Part shown: piece by piece, positions 12,986-19,782 of the stretch
Layout of the letters: every line of letters starts with the position of its first letter
How positions within the stretch are numbered: position 1 is the first letter of the stretch
Source of the DNA: Clostridiales bacterium
Lineage (GTDB): Bacteria > Bacillota > Clostridia > Christensenellales > Borkfalkiaceae
NCBI GenBank assembly: GCA_015055655.1
Contig: SVHW01000003.1
Location: 62,001-126,000 of the forward strand
DNA length: 64,000 nucleotides
Direction of reading: 5' to 3'
The notes under the pieces: generated by a model
Databases searched by the model: none
What the model was told of the DNA's origin: nothing
The model's input: only the letters and a program-made list of their open reading frames with translations
Made by a program: the position numbers and the translations under genes

Positions 12986-13014
12986 ATTGTAACATTTTTT
13001 TATTACTTTTTCAA
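12986..13014 (-). promoter_or_regulatory. Promoter of the fakA operon
   Basis: TTGAAA (13009-13014) and TACAAT (12986-12991) are separated by 17 nt on the minus strand. The leader before the GTG start would be about 50 nt. Its position rules out the longer fakA frame. Confidence 0.75.
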
Positions 13015-13190
13015 GCGTTTGCACCTATTTTCACGAGATTTTGTTTTTTAAGCTTTACATTTTCACAATCTTTTCACAAAAAATGGTGTTTTTGGGGTTT
13101 TTTAGGCGATAAAAACCGTCTTCTTTTTAACTTTGTTAAAAAACACACAAATAAATTGTGAAGAAATTCCGTCTAATTTGCGTCGTTTAT

Positions 13191-13413
13191 AAAGAAAAAC
13201 GCCCCGTGAAAGGGACGTTTGTCTTTATAAACTGTTCAAGAAATAGTTTAATTTTTCCTTTTGTTCGCTGCTTAAATGTTCAAATACCAACGAAAAATGT
13301 AATTGCACGCTTTCTTTTCGTTCACTTTGAACGTTTACCCCAAAAACCTCATTTCTTATTTCTTGTATTTTGAGCTCGATTTCCTTTTGAACATATTTGT
13401 TTTTTATTGGCGC
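13191..13413. repeat. Left copy of a 223-bp direct repeat
   Basis: It aligns without gaps to 19747-19969 (offset 6,556 bp) with about 90% identity by eye. It contains a terminator hairpin (GGGACGT/ACGCCCC) and the 3' half of the Rho-N/SAP-like gene. The two copies are in the same orientation and bracket the serine hydrolase and the McrB-like module. Confidence 0.9.
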
Positions 13414-13434
13414 GCCTGTTTTGGGCGCGCGCAA
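13225..13434 (-). pseudogene. Truncated copy of the Rho-N/SAP-like gene
   Basis: The frame encodes 69 residues whose last 62 nearly match the C-terminus of the intact protein at 19781-20170 (shared blocks NVQSERKESVQLHFSLVFE and EKLNYFLNSL, with minor changes). The N-terminal Rho-N/SAP-like domain is absent, replaced by MRAPKT. It keeps the parent terminator but shows no ribosome site or promoter. It is best read as a 5'-deleted remnant left by a duplication. Confidence 0.75.
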
Positions 13435-13450
13435 ACTTTTCGCGTCGTTT

Positions 13451-14677
13451 TTATCTCAACGCTCTTTTTACCGCTTTTTCAAACTTGGTAGCGCTTTCAT
13501 TTCCAGCCCCGCCGTCCACCGTAGAATTCTTCATATATACCGCCACGATTTCGTTGCTAGGGTCTATCCAAAAATGAGAGCCGTACGCGCCGCTCCAACC
13601 GAACGCGCCTTTGGGTAAATACGGGTGATTATCGTCCGCAATCACTCTCACGCCCAACCCCCAAAACGTAGTGTCGTCAACCTTTACCTTTGGCGTGGAC
13701 ATTTCCTTAAAAACTTCTTCTTTCATAAGCCGCCCCGTCTCCGTCTTACCCTTATTTAAGAGCATAGTGGCAAATTTTGCATAGTCTTCCATGGTAGAAG
13801 CAAGCCCCGCACCCGCCGCACAATGCGTAACGGGATAGTTCCCAAACACACATCCGTCTGGCATCTGCACCGTGGTGTTTCCGTTTTCATCCCGTCCATG
13901 CATATCAATTACACGCGACCATTGTTCCGTAGTAGGCATAAAGGTTGTATTCGTCATACCGCAAGGCTCGAAAATTTCTTGCGTGTAAAACGCTTGTAAG
14001 GTTTGCCCTGAAACCTGCTCGATAATATACCCAAGCGTCGAAAATGCGGCTACCGCGCTATAAAATTGCGTAGAACCTGGCTCAAAATCCACGCCGAGCT
14101 CAGCAAAGCGTTTCGCATAACTTAATGAAGTTTTTCTGTCCTCGTTAGTGATAAAACTTTCTTTTTCCGTATCGTTGCTTCCTATCCCTGACGTGTGCGT
14201 AAGCAAATGTCTAATGGTTATGGCGGTTTTCGCTACGCCTAAATCCAGCAATTTGCCCCCGTCCGTCTTCGTAATACGCACGTTTTTGTATTCGGGGATA
14301 AATTTCGCCACTTCGTCGTCAAGCGAAAGCAAACCGCGGTCTACCAGTATCAACGTCGCCACCGCCGTAACGGGCTTCGTCATAGACGCCAAACGGAAAA
14401 TCGTAGTATCGTTCAACGGTTTTTTAGCAAGAGATGCGTAACCGAAGTAGTTTTTATAAACTACTTCTCCCTTTTGCATAACAAGATATCCCGAACCGAA
14501 AACCTTGTTGTTTTCAAAATCGAATTCCGCAATTCTTTCGATTTGTCTTGTCAGTTTACGTTTGTTGAGTATTTGCGTTTGTCCCCCACATCCGTTTGTC
14601 TTGCAAGCGAAAAAGCCAACGGAGCAACTCAAAGCCACTATCATCCCAAACACTCGCATAAAAAACTTTTTCTTCAT
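13451..14677 (-). CDS. Serine hydrolase, beta-lactamase class C family, probable lipoprotein
   Basis: 408 residues from the ATG at 14677 (five more codons are possible, start 14692; neither has a clear ribosome site). The N-terminus MKKKFFMRVF with hydrophobic core ends at FFAC, a passable lipobox. The catalytic SxxK is SMTK in RLASMTKPVTAV (about residue 98), and RHLLTHTSGIG is the usual downstream block. The second catalytic motif appears as YSA (FYSAVAAFSTLG) and the third region as GAYGSHFW. The family includes D,D-peptidases, esterases and class C enzymes; without the exact triad the substrate cannot be named. It sits between the 223-bp direct repeats, downstream of the McrB-like pair on the same strand. 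Confidence 0.8.
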   Translation of the reverse strand: MKKKFFMRVFGMIVALSCSVGFFACKTNGCGGQTQILNKRKLTRQIERIAEFDFENNKVFGSGYLVMQKGEVVYKNYFGYASLAKKPLNDTTIFRLASMTKPVTAVATLILVDRGLLSLDDEVAKFIPEYKNVRITKTDGGKLLDLGVAKTAITIRHLLTHTSGIGSNDTEKESFITNEDRKTSLSYAKRFAELGVDFEPGSTQFYSAVAAFSTLGYIIEQVSGQTLQAFYTQEIFEPCGMTNTTFMPTTEQWSRVIDMHGRDENGNTTVQMPDGCVFGNYPVTHCAAGAGLASTMEDYAKFATMLLNKGKTETGRLMKEEVFKEMSTPKVKVDDTTFWGLGVRVIADDNHPYLPKGAFGWSGAYGSHFWIDPSNEIVAVYMKNSTVDGGAGNESATKFEKAVKRALR

Positions 14678-14835
14678 AACACCGCTAACCATCTCTTTTT
14701 ATATATCGCATTTTACCATATTTCCCTTTGGTTGTCAACGCCCTTTCTTATCCTTACTTTTGTATGCAATGTTCTCTTCGTAGTTTAACGCTCGGCAATG
14801 TTTTGTCTATTTCCAATAATCCTCCACCCGAATAT

Positions 14836-14896
14836 CGGGTGGTTTTTCTTTATATCAACAAAACCTTTCCCCTCCTTGCAAAGGAGGGGAAAGGAT
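14836..14896. terminator. Inverted repeat after the zinc-ribbon gene
   Basis: CCTTTCCCCTCCTT (about 14865) pairs with AAGGAGGGGAAAGG (about 14881). It lies about 20 bp beyond the stop of the McrB-partner gene and is a likely terminator or processing hairpin for the two-gene operon. Confidence 0.6.
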
Positions 14897-14916
14897 AACC
14901 ACTTATGAAATTGTCT

Positions 14917-16449
14917 TTATTCGTGTACTTTCCCACATTTCGGGCAAATCGTTTTACCAAAGAAATTAATATCCGTGATATTTCTAAAAAACAATTGCGA
15001 TTCGATAAATTTATCCGTAAGGAATTTATTTCTCTTATTCGCTTCTTCGGGCGCAACTTTGGGCGTATATTCATAAATACCCGTTTCAAAATAGGCTTCT
15101 TGCTTTTCGGGACAAACCGTTTGCTTAATAACCGTTCTACAAGGCACGCAAACATGGCCTTCCTTCGTCGGCGTAAGCGTTTTGCCGCAGAAGGGGCAAA
15201 CGTCCCTTTTTTCGTCGCTGTATACCATCCCACGGAAGATAAGCTGTTGCATCCTTCTAAACGAGTCAATATCAAAAATACTCAAGTAGAAAAAGCCTTT
15301 CACGCCGCTTTCCCACGGGTCTGCATAGAAATATTCGTCCGCGCTACATTTCGCCTTAAATTTCTCTACTTTTCTCTCGTCCTGTTCCCCGTCGTTACGG
15401 AAGATTAAACAGATGCGATAATCTTTGTCCTTGTGGAAGGAAAAAAGCAAACCGCGAATCCCTTCGCAACGGTATTCTTCTAACTCCAATTTCCAATCTT
15501 TAAAAGTTGCCTCCGTGCTAAGGTTTAAGAAATTTAAACGTTTTCTCGTTGTAAATTGGAAATTAAAATGCCCCGCCGAGAAAACTGCCAACATATTACA
15601 GTACGCCGTGTACCCTTCTCGCGAGGCGTCGCCAACGTACAACTCGTCCTCAATTTCCGCATTGGTTGCAATAAACCATCTCAAAAGGGAATACACCTGT
15701 ATATAATCTTTATGCAAACGGAAAACGTTCGTCTTTTTCAACGTTAATTTTGATTTGTCCTTTTTACAATGCCGATACACGCTGCTGTGCAATTTTGCGC
15801 GCAAGGTATTGTCGATAAACAACAACTTTTCAAGGCAGCGCCCGTATGCCATTTGATATTCGTCCTGCGCACGAGAATACCCAAGGTTCAGTTTCCCTAT
15901 AGCCAAAAAATAATTCAAATGGTTCGTTCGTTGTAATAAATTGACGTGCAAATCACGGTGCGCGTACATGATATCTTTAAGCAAACTGATGTTGCGCTTT
16001 ACGTAACTAAGGATAATATTGATAAGCCGTGCAAAGGCAATATTCTCATAGATGAGATATTCTTCACACTTATCCAACGTCATCAGCTTTTTCGGCTTCA
16101 GTTCACCATCCTTGATATCCCCCCAAAGCTCGCTATGTCGGGATACGTGGCACATCGATTGGTTGTTCACCACGCGTACGGACTCAATAGGCAAAACGTT
16201 GTATACCTCTGTTAAACGAGTAATTGGCTTGGAGAAAATGCGTTTCAACGAGGGTAGCGCACGAATAATTTTATTCAACGTTCTCTCAATTTCTCGAAAA
16301 TGCCCGTCTTTGGGCGTGACAAATAAGTTGACCGTCGTCAACGTAAGCGCGTCAAAATCAGCGTAGGATAACCTGTTTTTTTCTTGAGCAAATTCTAACA
16401 ACGCAGAATATTCGTCATCCAAATCCTTTGGCAGTTGATTTTTCTGCAT
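14917..16449 (-). CDS. Partner protein of the McrB-like ATPase, DUF2357-like with C-terminal zinc ribbons
   Basis: 510 residues, no signal peptide or membrane segment. The start ATG (16447-16449) is one base after the ATPase stop, so the two are translationally coupled. The segment around RHSELWGDIKDGELKPKK and ENIAFARLINIIL resembles the N-terminal part of DUF2357 proteins, which accompany McrB-type ATPases; this assignment is by eye. Residues about 416-440 hold CPFCG and CVPC, and the extreme C-terminus has CPKCG: two zinc-binding sites. I could not find a convincing PD-(D/E)xK nuclease core, the usual effector in McrC. It may be a nucleic-acid-recognition subunit, or carry an unrecognised effector domain. 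Gene order (ATPase then partner) matches mcrB-mcrC. Confidence 0.6.
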   Translation of the reverse strand: MQKNQLPKDLDDEYSALLEFAQEKNRLSYADFDALTLTTVNLFVTPKDGHFREIERTLNKIIRALPSLKRIFSKPITRLTEVYNVLPIESVRVVNNQSMCHVSRHSELWGDIKDGELKPKKLMTLDKCEEYLIYENIAFARLINIILSYVKRNISLLKDIMYAHRDLHVNLLQRTNHLNYFLAIGKLNLGYSRAQDEYQMAYGRCLEKLLFIDNTLRAKLHSSVYRHCKKDKSKLTLKKTNVFRLHKDYIQVYSLLRWFIATNAEIEDELYVGDASREGYTAYCNMLAVFSAGHFNFQFTTRKRLNFLNLSTEATFKDWKLELEEYRCEGIRGLLFSFHKDKDYRICLIFRNDGEQDERKVEKFKAKCSADEYFYADPWESGVKGFFYLSIFDIDSFRRMQQLIFRGMVYSDEKRDVCPFCGKTLTPTKEGHVCVPCRTVIKQTVCPEKQEAYFETGIYEYTPKVAPEEANKRNKFLTDKFIESQLFFRNITDINFFGKTICPKCGKVHE

Positions 16450-16450
16450 A

Positions 16451-19426
16451 TTAATCCTCGTTCAATTTTAAGATAAACTTGCTACATTCGTGTAAATTCA
16501 GCTTTTCAAATTCCGCCGCCAACAACTCTTTATTTTCCACGCTCTTAAGTTCAAGCTTGCTAACCACTTTGCTCAGCAAAATCTTTTCTACTGCACTGTG
16601 GATAACCTTGTCCGAAGAAGCAAAACAGGAGCTGTAAACGTTAACGAAGCTTTCTATTTGCATTGCAATACGGTTACCAAACGAGATATTGTAAGGAGCA
16701 AGCAGTTTTTCCACTTCGCCGATAACGGGATATTCGTCAATGTTAAACTTAACCTTTTCTTTTGCCTTTGCAAACAGCTTTTCAAGCATATCAACAGGCA
16801 GGAATTTTTGGGGGACAGGGTCGTTATAATGCAACACCTTCGGCGCACGTTTATTAAAGTTCATCGTGTGCGCTCTGTCGTATACCTTATCACTGATTTC
16901 AAACGTACTTTCGTCACGGTTTGCCGTACCGATAAACCACACGTTTCCGGGGATTTTTATCGTATGCCCTTCAAACAAGCCTTCATACGGCACCTTTTCT
17001 CCTTCTTCCGTACGCATAAGACAAACGTTGAGAAGACGCAACTCTCTCTTATCCGGTTCGTTTTCCATAAGCGAAAGGAAATCGGAGAAATAATACTCGA
17101 TACGGCTAAGGTTCATTTCGTCCAAAACGATAAAGGTAAGCGTGTCCGCGTTCAGTTTTGCACGATACAACGCCTGCGTAAATTTCTTCGGCGTGAAGTT
17201 TTTACTAAATTCGTTGTAATAACCAAGCAGTTCGTTTTTATCTCTCCAAGAAGATTCCACTTCGATAATCTCGCACGTAGCGTGTAATGCTTCGGCAAAA
17301 ATTTTAGGAAGACTGGTTTTGCCCGTACCGCTCATACCTTGCAAAATAGTAAGTTTCGTCGTCCCTAACCCAGCAACAAAGGTTGCAATGTCTTCTTCCG
17401 TGTAAGACAAATGCAAACGGCTGTCACGAGCATACTGCACGACGAATTGAACCAACTTAGGCAGGGTAGGCTTATCGAATAATTCTTCGCGCTTTTTCGC
17501 AAGTTCTTCTTGGTATTGTGGAATTTTTGCATCCAACTCTGTAAAAATAGGGCAAGGGTCTGCGAAAAACACCTTTTCTTCCTTGGTTGCCACATCTTCC
17601 ACTATTACGGTGCCGTCGTTGCGCGTTGTCAATAATTCTTCCGGCAAATCCTTTAAGGAAATTTCCCCTTCTATCGTTTGCGGAACTTCGCTTTCTTCCA
17701 TTAACGCGTACTCGCGTTCTACCGTAATCCCTTTCGTATACGGGTTGCGGAATAACAAGTACGTGATTACCACTGCCGAGCCGAGCGAATAATACAACGC
17801 GTCGCTCTCTACTTTATATTCCAGCCCCCACGCCAGCATTTCATTCAACCACTCTTCGTCTTTAAAGTAACTGCTAACATATCCCTTCAATATCCCCTCG
17901 TCTAATGCTTGTACTACTTCGTAATATTTCCCGAACATACCCACAAGGAAGGTGGCAATCGTACAAACCGTAACTGCCGTTAACGCAACCTTGTAAAATA
18001 CGTTTGAACGGCTGAGGAAAGAAATTAAAGTGAAGAAAAACGACACGGCTATCAACGACAACAGCGCGATAATGATAAAGGCAATCGTTTGCGCGCCTTT
18101 GTCTAATATGAGATAGTTTTTAATTAAATCGTACCCGATTAATTTTATGTTAGGAAGTTTTATGTCCAAAAATTCAGGCAACACTTGCTCCCCAAAGGAA
18201 ATGGTAAGGATATTGGTAAGCAACGCAACAACGGAAAACGCCGTAATCAGCATAGCGCAAACAAACAACTCTATGCGCGCTCTGTACAAAACCTTTCTCT
18301 TTTTGCGTCTCTTCTCTTTTTTGACGTCTACTTGTTCCTTTTCTTCTTTTTTTACCAAATATAACTTTCGATAAATACCCAGCATTATAGCGTGCGCCAC
18401 GAGAAGACACGCCGTAATAATCAGCGGAATGAAATTGCTCGCCACGAACACCGCCGCACCCGTCATATAAAAGACGGAACTAGCAATAATGCCACCGATA
18501 AAATATATAGCCGTGAATACCGTGGCAAAAATAATGGTCTTCTTAGACGCCTCCACCAATAGCTTTTCGTCGGAGAAAATTTTCGTGACGCAACCTGCAA
18601 AATATTTTAACACAATAACAATTGCAATGGTTATCCCCACGAACGTAGCCATTGCCGAACAAATCATATTATTGCTAAGCGTTCCGCCTTGTCGTAAGAA
18701 ATAAAGAATTTGTATCGGGTAAAGATTGACGTATTTGCGTGAAGCAACTGCTTTGTATTGACAAAAAGCAACAAAGTACAAACAAATAACGACAACTACG
18801 CTGGCCGCCGCCAACGCCAAAAAGATACCCTTTCTAATCCATTGTTGCTTTACCGAACCCAACTCTTCGTCCTTTTCCGTTTTGGGTGCGTTCTCTTTAT
18901 TTAAAAACGTAGCAGCCACCATATAGATGACGTAAAATACAAGCGCAAGGATGAAAAGCGCACCACTATGTACCGCGTGAATCCCCTGCGTAACGTCAAA
19001 TATACGCATCAACGAGCAAATAATAATGCTGCTTAAATAATATACGCACGTCATTGCAACCGAAAGTAACACCGTCTTTCTTGCGTATTTTGCCAATCTA
19101 TTTTCGTCGTAGAAGAAGCTAAGTACGCCCTTCCCCAAAAACAACAGTGCGACACCTAACATAACGATGCCAGCAAGGAAAATAGCAAGCCCTATATACG
19201 CCGTATAATGCTCCCAATTCTTCACGTCGAATAGCAAGCTAAACATTTTAATGGGCACTATCGTTTCTTCCTCACCCGTTACCGTTCCGTAACTGATATA
19301 GGGAACAAGCATCGTCACCAGCATCAACACAGCGCTAACAACCAACGCCCCCAACAAGAAATATTTGCGGCTTTTTGCGATAATTACACCCACTTTTTCT
19401 TTTATCATCGTAAAAAAGTCTTCCAT
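16451..19426 (-). CDS. Membrane-anchored McrB-type AAA+ ATPase
   Basis: 991 residues. The first 560 contain about 12 hydrophobic helices with short basic loops (for example KKEKRRKKRK). The soluble C-terminal part is an AAA+ module of the McrB/MoxR branch: Walker A GMSGTGKT at about residue 700, Walker B FIVLDEMN at about 767, then GTANRDES with DKVYDRA at about 836-850. The last corresponds to the sensor/arginine-finger block that in McrB reads MNTADRS...LRRRF. The MNxxD GTP signature is changed, so nucleotide preference is uncertain. A strong promoter and GGAGGAG precede the ATG. It forms a two-gene operon with the zinc-ribbon protein. McrB proteins are cytosolic restriction motors; a polytopic membrane domain is unusual and suggests action at the envelope. 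Confidence 0.75.
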   Translation of the reverse strand: MEDFFTMIKEKVGVIIAKSRKYFLLGALVVSAVLMLVTMLVPYISYGTVTGEEETIVPIKMFSLLFDVKNWEHYTAYIGLAIFLAGIVMLGVALLFLGKGVLSFFYDENRLAKYARKTVLLSVAMTCVYYLSSIIICSLMRIFDVTQGIHAVHSGALFILALVFYVIYMVAATFLNKENAPKTEKDEELGSVKQQWIRKGIFLALAAASVVVVICLYFVAFCQYKAVASRKYVNLYPIQILYFLRQGGTLSNNMICSAMATFVGITIAIVIVLKYFAGCVTKIFSDEKLLVEASKKTIIFATVFTAIYFIGGIIASSVFYMTGAAVFVASNFIPLIITACLLVAHAIMLGIYRKLYLVKKEEKEQVDVKKEKRRKKRKVLYRARIELFVCAMLITAFSVVALLTNILTISFGEQVLPEFLDIKLPNIKLIGYDLIKNYLILDKGAQTIAFIIIALLSLIAVSFFFTLISFLSRSNVFYKVALTAVTVCTIATFLVGMFGKYYEVVQALDEGILKGYVSSYFKDEEWLNEMLAWGLEYKVESDALYYSLGSAVVITYLLFRNPYTKGITVEREYALMEESEVPQTIEGEISLKDLPEELLTTRNDGTVIVEDVATKEEKVFFADPCPIFTELDAKIPQYQEELAKKREELFDKPTLPKLVQFVVQYARDSRLHLSYTEEDIATFVAGLGTTKLTILQGMSGTGKTSLPKIFAEALHATCEIIEVESSWRDKNELLGYYNEFSKNFTPKKFTQALYRAKLNADTLTFIVLDEMNLSRIEYYFSDFLSLMENEPDKRELRLLNVCLMRTEEGEKVPYEGLFEGHTIKIPGNVWFIGTANRDESTFEISDKVYDRAHTMNFNKRAPKVLHYNDPVPQKFLPVDMLEKLFAKAKEKVKFNIDEYPVIGEVEKLLAPYNISFGNRIAMQIESFVNVYSSCFASSDKVIHSAVEKILLSKVVSKLELKSVENKELLAAEFEKLNLHECSKFILKLNED

Positions 19427-19466
19427 GTTCTCCTCCGTAAGACCGTTTTTTTGATTCTACCTTTTT

Positions 19467-19495
19467 ATTATATAGCCCTTTTTTGAAAATGGCAA
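19467..19495 (-). promoter_or_regulatory. Promoter of the McrB-like operon
   Basis: TTGCCA (19490-19495) and TATAAT (19467-19472) with a 17-nt spacer on the minus strand, about 40 nt before the start codon. The strength suggests constitutive expression. Confidence 0.75.
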
Positions 19496-19517
19496 GTGAT
19501 TAAACGCGTTTTTACAC

Positions 19518-19583
19518 TCATTTCATTTTTAATAAATCGCCCAAAAATGTGCCTAAAAATACAACGAAAAATAATATCCACAT
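19518..19583 (-). CDS. 21-residue hydrophobic peptide upstream of the McrB-like gene
   Basis: A short frame encodes MWILFFVVFLGTFLGDLLKM plus a final Lys, in effect one membrane helix with a charged end. It has a good ribosome site (AAGGGAG, 6 nt from the ATG) and an upstream TATAAT with TG extension at about 19608-19615. It may be a small membrane peptide linked to the adjacent membrane ATPase, a leader peptide, or a chance frame in an AT-rich gap. It is too short for family recognition. Confidence 0.35.
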   Translation of the reverse strand: MWILFFVVFLGTFLGDLLKMK

Positions 19584-19706
19584 AATAAACTCCCTTTTTT
19601 ACGTCTATTATAACAAAATAAATATGACAGTTTCCGTCGAGTATATTAAAATATTTCTAATTTTTCCCGCGGTGGTGTGAGGCAAAGCACTCACTCTCGT
19701 TCGTGG

Positions 19707-19782
19707 CTCCACCCTCGACTCTCGCCAGTCTTTGGCATACCACCAAAAAGAAAAACGCCCCGTGAAAGGGACGTTTTTCTTT
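19707..19782. repeat. 76-bp direct repeat, left copy
   Basis: It reads CTCCACCCTCGACTCTCGCC, then a GGCATACC block, then an A-rich run and the hairpin ACGCCCC/GGGACGT. It matches 20865-20940 at the same length. The two copies flank the Rho-N/SAP-like and HTH genes, and the right copy abuts the tRNA-Gly gene. The hairpin doubles as terminator of the Rho-N/SAP-like gene. Confidence 0.8.

Follow-up and report, generated by a model that had tools for sequence, protein, structure and literature searches.

The McrB GTPases include a branch in which the NxxD motif is shortened to NxD, with E or D usually next, and to which the CoCoNuT and CoCoPALM systems belong (PMC11090510). Dead Type II McrC homologues retain an inactive nuclease fold, probably for nucleic acid binding, and according to the main text of the same census, every NxD McrBC system whose McrC nuclease is dead has a gene for another nuclease alongside (PMC11090510). 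A 64,000-nucleotide stretch of the genome of a Clostridiales bacterium (GCA_015055655.1, contig SVHW01000003.1, positions 62,001 to 126,000; hereafter the window) contains two adjacent genes, A and B, which are related to these systems. All coordinates below are window positions unless a locus is named, and all features of the pair lie on the minus strand. The pair appears to encode an McrBC/CoCoNuT-like, membrane-embedded two-gene machine without a nuclease of its own, and its most likely role, which we put forward tentatively, would be a membrane-acting abortive response to phages or invading elements.

The gene of protein A (991 aa, 16451–19426) is an open frame with an ATG start, encoding a polytopic membrane domain followed by an NxD McrB-type AAA+ module (residues 626–991, 16454–17551, delimited with sequence profiles). 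The module contains the Walker A motif GMSGTGKT (residues 697–704, 17315–17338), the Walker B motif VLDEMN (residues 767–772, 17111–17128) and the NxD motif GTANRDES (residues 833–840, 16907–16930), in which E follows the N-x-D as is usual in the branch. A genome scan found 310 relatives, of which the best 80 loci were kept. GMSGTGK was present in all 80, N[RKS]DES in 79, the last one having NLDET, and N-x-D in 80 of 80. Since the motifs and the reading frame were kept in these loci, a pseudogene or a chance open reading frame (ORF) was rejected. The Pfam family AAA_5 barely passed its cut-off on A (22.7 versus 22 bits), and the PADLOC-DB candidate model PDC-M26A matched the AAA+ region at 5.4e-48. 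When the AAA+ profile was compared with the PDB sequences, three McrB entries ranked at the top (E-values of 0.0011–0.0025); a search of the PDB sequences with the whole of A gave no match. With hhalign, the module scored 96% against the McrB of K-12 and 0.7% against the MoxR ATPase RavA, the sole MoxR control. Fold comparison alone did not distinguish McrB from MoxR, dynein or MCM modules, so that the assignment of the module comes from the profile search and hhalign and not from the fold. On this sequence evidence the AAA+ module of A is a member of the McrB lineage, nearer to McrB than to the other AAA+ clade compared.

A preliminary description of this DNA had recognized an McrB-type AAA+ motor joined to a polytopic membrane domain. 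This holds: the motifs are present, 12 helices are modelled and the arrangement is kept in relatives. It had also considered that the C-terminal module might lie outside the McrB/MoxR clade, and by sequence the module falls with McrB. The GTP motif, which it had called altered, is so (GTANRDES), but this is not a private change, being a hallmark of the published NxD branch (PMC11090510). The statement that McrB motors are cytosolic was too strong, as membrane-anchored CoCoPALMs had already been published (PMC11090510).

The 560 or so N-terminal residues of A, ahead of the AAA+ module, are membrane helices. The hydropathy profile showed 11 segments, and an AlphaFold2 model built with 30 relatives showed 12 membrane helices, a compact AAA+ module and a low-confidence linker at residues 580–620 (mean predicted local distance difference test score, pLDDT, of 76.9, with most of repeat 1 at 50–68). 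The 12 helices correspond to three tandem four-helix repeats, of which relatives carry two or three, each modelled as one helix, an extracytoplasmic beta-hairpin and three more helices. Repeat 1 (residues 1–185, 18872–19426), with its hairpin after the first of four helices, was the least confident in the model. Repeat 2 (residues 187–365, 18332–18868) was delimited by hhalign and the model, and repeat 3 (residues 374–560, 17747–18307), which adjoins the motor, is the best conserved. The hhalign scores between the segments 1–185, 187–365 and 374–520 were 94% for repeats 1 and 2, 96% for repeats 2 and 3, and 46% for repeats 1 and 3. When the loops predicted for 30 relatives were compared, those on the cytosolic side had 24.0 K and R per 100 residues and those outside had 7.5; this charge bias places the N-terminus and the AAA+ module in the cytosol, a topology that is therefore supported.

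The number of repeats is variable. Among the 67 complete proteins of 82, 49 had 11–12 predicted helices and 18 had 6–8, and the tree requires at least four switches between these two states. The window protein belongs to a group of seven rows, of which the other six comprise five complete proteins with 7–8 helices and one that is split. Its repeat 1 best matched the first repeat of locus L054 (28% over 147 residues). Because the five other complete members of the group have 7–8 helices, the extra repeat of the window protein may be a recent gain. The membrane domain diverges fast: over 378 pairs, mean identity was 25% in the membrane part, compared to 65% in the AAA+ module and 39% in B. The AAA+ and B identities were correlated (0.875), which fits partners inherited together, yet shared ancestry alone also yields such a correlation.

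The gene of protein B (510 aa, 14917–16449) has its start codon one base past the stop of A and encodes a McrC/CnuC-like partner. The DUF2357 family (PF09823, E-value up to 0.1) was detected in 18 of 28 B members, the window protein falling just short of the cut-off (23.2 versus 23.3 bits). In hhalign comparisons B matched the CnuC-like partners of two CoCoNuT-like plasmid operons, from Nostoc (99.4%, E-value 5.5e-22, 282 columns) and from Deinococcus (98.3%, E-value 2.2e-14, 254 columns), so that the N-terminal DUF2357 domain of McrC homologues was recognized by both approaches. The same comparison with the McrC of K-12 gave no sequence match (0.05%). The C-terminal region (residues 418–509, 14923–15198) is a zinc-ribbon region whose seven cysteines C418, C421, C434, C437, C446, C502 and C505 were invariant across 28 sequences. 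Its first ribbon resembles those of ribosomal eL43 and of TFIIB type (best E-value 0.0027), and the Nostoc and Deinococcus partners have a C-terminal CxxC series too. Between these two parts, a structure model of residues 277–410 (15220–15621) points to a nuclease-like fold, with McrC and Bax1 matched weakly. Across the 28 sequences, no (D/E)xK column was conserved there (5 of 28 at most), and the active PD-(D/E)xK nuclease of McrC homologues was not recognized in B. From these alignments, we regard B as a McrC homologue of the CnuC-like kind that has zinc ribbons but lacks the PD-(D/E)xK motif.

The preliminary description had proposed a two-gene pair, and B was indeed the only recurring neighbour of A. 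It was detected at 79 of 82 loci, the remaining three ending at most 184 bases past A. In 76 of these 79 loci it lay no more than 60 bases downstream of A, and in L130, L131 and L133 it lay upstream. Counted among recurring neighbours, B was found at 77 of the 82 loci and was followed by an ABC-transporter-like cluster at 14 loci, on either strand. No other gene recurred widely near A in the 82 loci, nucleases included, with only 50 of them extending 3 kb or more to each side; the nuclease in tandem of a CoCoNuT, HEPN or other, had no counterpart. A third obligate gene was rejected as non-recurrent, though three early-branching loci have one. The nearest same-strand gene lay within 60 bases in 9 of 67 loci upstream and in 18 of 74 loci downstream. 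As only B recurs, A does not consistently belong to a housekeeping operon.

In the window, a ribosome-binding site (ggagga, 19431–19436) lies 4 bases ahead of the ATG of A, preceded by a promoter-like TTGCCA-17-TATAAT (19467–19495, 11 of 12 matches in a consensus scan). A strong terminator-like hairpin of 14 pairs (8 G-C) with a T-rich tail (14864–14894) lies directly 3' of B. Fourteen promoter-like sites were found in the region where shuffling predicts 12.0, which makes any one of them weak evidence; for terminator-like sites the numbers were 13 found and 6.9 expected. A and B form a compact unit bounded by these promoter-like and terminator-like sites.

Relatives are patchy across Bacillota and Acholeplasma-like genomes. 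Among 396 genomes of the order of the window, 11 contained A at an E-value of 1e-120 or below, its own genome included; at 1e-100 it was found in 27 of 150 genomes of an Acholeplasma-type order, in a single copy each. The carriers include a cultured organism, Paracholeplasma vituli 92-19 (L116). The titles of the 80 kept relatives named Bacillota, Acholeplasma-like and related organisms, and mostly metagenome-assembled genomes. When 6–20 kb were compared, A and B were alone in common between the window and the loci L021, L022 and L058; with L055 and L056 there was, beyond the pair, just a weak match to one distant ORF of the window. Overlaps on the reverse strand were rejected as shadows of these two genes. 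Of the genomes examined, the closest one has a flanking DAK-type protein 79–80% identical to that of the window, and its gene order is TrmL, SpoIIR, SleB, YpeB, Fur, tRNA-Gly, RhoN, VWA-domain protein, DAK and DegV. The variable site (13000–19780 in the window, L136:5330-7050 in the relative) lies between the RhoN-domain and DAK-type genes, about 1.2 kb from tRNA-Gly; there, A, B and a beta-lactamase-family gene replace the VWA/DUF11 protein of the relative. In a quick tree the Anaeroplasma rows were nested among Clostridia rows. The trees carry long-branch warnings, and the transfer that this nesting suggests may include binning errors, as most relatives are metagenome-assembled. Taken together, A and B look like an accessory, horizontally mobile and co-inherited pair.

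In a tree of the AAA+ modules, the clades agreed with the membrane architecture: 82 polytopic rows (support 100), 6 four-helix rows (99) and 17 rows with one to two helices (82). After addition of CoCoNuT-like rows the polytopic clade persisted (100/100) and joined them at 83/94, again with long-branch warnings. There was no sign by hhalign that the four-helix cousins represent a single-repeat ancestor (7% at most). One of these cousins is encoded in the genome of the window itself, on contig C3 (L023:731-4969): this second membrane-anchored NxD AAA+ gene specifies 622 aa with about 4–5 helices, and the product of the next gene, 788 aa long, matches DUF2357 weakly (E-value 0.0065). In another (L034:5631-6917) the linker ahead of the AAA+ module consists of near-identical acidic repeats (EVVAEDGEQPA). 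At L029:7043-11172, one DUF2357-like gene is flanked, in a single operon, by two AAA+ genes of the one-to-two-helix type, which could form a mixed ring.

Four polytopic loci, L130, L131, L133 and L158, branch outside the main polytopic clade. In L130, B precedes A directly. In the three others a gene X lies between them, in the order B-X-A (L131:4355-5347, L133:6435-7967 and L158:8104-8814). The X proteins open with a signal peptide, which is lipobox-like in L131 and L133 but less evidently in L158. They are weakly related to each other (phmmer scores of 24–31 bits between L131 and L158, and 13–17 bits between L131 and L133), and no Pfam family was found above cut-off in any of the three. The X protein of L133 contains about ten acidic helical repeats (ELLDNEDFMDVYRELLSRENIWDYV).

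In the mechanism that we propose by analogy with McrBC, six A modules would form a ring beneath the membrane, which would bring together about 72 helices; B would dock on this ring through its DUF2357 part and stimulate the hydrolysis of nucleoside triphosphates (NTP). B may use its zinc ribbons together with its dead nuclease fold to bind a nucleic acid or ribonucleoprotein linked to infection. By its strokes, the ring would next act on the membrane domain, opening it, deforming it or signalling through it, instead of cleaving DNA or RNA. A membrane-acting abortive system is preferred because the nuclease is dead and has no companion, the membrane domain is built of repeats and changes fast, and the layout is that of a mobile two-gene unit. 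It is possible, if rather doubtful in such detail, that these McrBC relatives entirely lost the cutting of DNA and RNA, that B senses nucleic acid through its zinc ribbons and dead nuclease domain, and that the NTP-driven ring of A strains a large membrane assembly built of repeats to the point of leakage or signalling.

Several observations weigh against an abortive response. The preliminary description had suggested checking for a defence-island location, which was not borne out: the scan covered 143 of the 239 nearest neighbours, with no control set, and no neighbourhood of known defence genes was seen among them; of 128 Pfam families, the 25 most frequent were housekeeping families. PADLOC at an E-value of 1e-10 gave seven models with 1 to 4 members each, including the cysteine-desulfurase-type DndA and SspA. 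No relative was found among 58 viral-contig candidates. The plasmid relatives matched the AAA+ part of A only (266 records, none covering 80%), and B was unmatched on plasmids. PDC-M26A is a candidate model only, and it matched the four-helix and one-to-two-helix cousins too. Finally, the ties of the one-to-two-helix relatives to signal peptidases and the exported-protein-like X in three of the four early-branching polytopic loci point to the envelope.

Because related branches are associated with signal peptidases and X, a machine for the envelope or for export stands close behind the abortive system. It is a possible but less probable explanation in which the membrane ring would export, extract or assemble surface proteins, or maintain the membrane, with B as a regulatory stalk; a comparable envelope role, with pilus-type assembly factors, has been proposed for the CoCoPALMs (PMC11090510). 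Genes similar to S26 signal peptidases were found near 14 of 17 one-to-two-helix loci, and ORFs with SipW-type signals near nine of them. Because S26-like genes adjoin 14 of these 17 loci, this clade probably corresponds to putative CoCoPALMs. The weakly interrelated, lipoprotein- or signal-bearing X proteins, the extracytoplasmic hairpin in each repeat of A and the absence of a defence-gene neighbourhood from the scan described above all agree with a function at the envelope. However, S26-like genes were seen at just 2 of 83 polytopic and 0 of 5 four-helix loci, in a search whose model was seeded in one of the 17 one-to-two-helix loci and so favoured that clade, and SipW-type ORFs at 6 polytopic loci and no four-helix locus. 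The main polytopic clade has no recurrent exported partner, the zinc ribbons and nuclease-like region of B would be odd in an export device, and the distribution is patchy and mobile.

That the pair restricts DNA as a tethered type IV system, in which the membrane domain merely anchors the motor near sites of DNA entry while a host nuclease or an unrecognized active site of B cuts, is improbable. The McrBC ancestry, the nuclease-like region of B with its weak fold matches, and the reported constant pairing of dead-McrC NxD systems with another nuclease (PMC11090510) would favour it, but B has no conserved (D/E)xK column, neither a nuclease nor any other third gene recurs beside the pair, and 8–12 helices in repeats of changing copy number are more than an anchor needs. 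A MoxR-like chaperone remodelling membrane protein complexes, with an McrB resemblance that is ancestral only, is equally hard to reconcile with the hhalign scores for RavA and McrB and with a partner that is McrC/CnuC-like and not a VWA protein.

The best plasmid relatives lie in operons with the order AAA-domain protein or kinase-annotated gene, hypothetical gene, AAA ATPase and DUF2357-type protein. Their AAA proteins have GTANHDET or GTANTDES and no membrane segment; the one of the Deinococcus operon was 37% identical to A over 333 residues. From gene order and motifs, the plasmid operons L151–L153 and L156 and the phage-labelled L155 are putative CoCoNuTs, with no Pfam match to HEPN in the hypothetical gene of the four tested. 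L155 (MT835511.1, 89-9346), a "Bacteriophage sp." scaffold from human faeces, has four same-strand genes in the CoCoNuT-like order (1049, 535, 824 and 689 aa), of which the third has the Walker motif and the fourth matches DUF2357 weakly. The record carries the label UNVERIFIED, and its DNA may be of bacterial origin. On the Lactococcus lactis plasmid p275A (L154), a cytosolic NxD AAA+ gene (GTVNTDES) precedes one for a DUF2357 protein, in which a PDDEXK_7 match looks intact. This pair sits between ISS1 copies, close to an annotated abortive-infection gene.

Compared with the CoCoNuTs as described (CnuB/CnuC; Bell et al. 2024, PMC11090510), the A-B pair has in common the NxD McrB AAA+ module, the DUF2357 partner, the C-terminal zinc CxxC pairs and an McrC homologue that, like those of Types II and III, lacks the nuclease motif. 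It differs in that A has membrane repeats where a CoCoNuT has a coiled coil, no long coiled coil fused to the GTPase being recognized in a region made of membrane repeats (no dedicated coiled-coil predictor was used), and in that no helicase, HEPN or other nuclease gene recurs beside the pair. B is also shorter than the CoCoNuT-like partners (510 aa versus 705 and 724) and, judged by length, has no coiled-coil inserts. With the CoCoPALMs it shares a membrane-anchored NxD McrB and a DUF2357 partner. These have, in the published description, an FtsB-like membrane and coiled-coil domain and signal peptidases nearby, whereas A has 8–12 helices in tandem repeats, forms a separate clade and rarely neighbours such genes (PMC11090510). 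EcoKMcrBC of E. coli K-12 shares with A the AAA+ fold, the Walker motifs and the position of the sensor asparagine, and its McrC is among the weak fold matches of B. Its NxxD motif, N-terminal DNA-binding domain and active PD-(D/E)xK nuclease are not shared. PDC-M26A has the AAA+ region in common and is silent on the membrane repeats; a literature search, judged on titles and abstract openings, found no description of PDC-M26 and no publication on a polytopic McrB.

The polytopic clade thus appears to break the rule stated in the main text of the census (PMC11090510), since only the motor and a dead partner recur in the loci examined, and a membrane domain with a variable number of four-helix repeats occupies the freed position of the motor. 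At about 4.5 kb, the pair is a small, autonomous unit. If the membrane is its target, a family that cuts nucleic acids gains a second mode of action, and if leak or signal is the outcome, a restriction ancestry would have been turned into a membrane-killing or membrane-signalling device. The resemblance to machines that defend against viruses by cutting DNA or RNA suggests that the polytopic branch works on the membrane instead.

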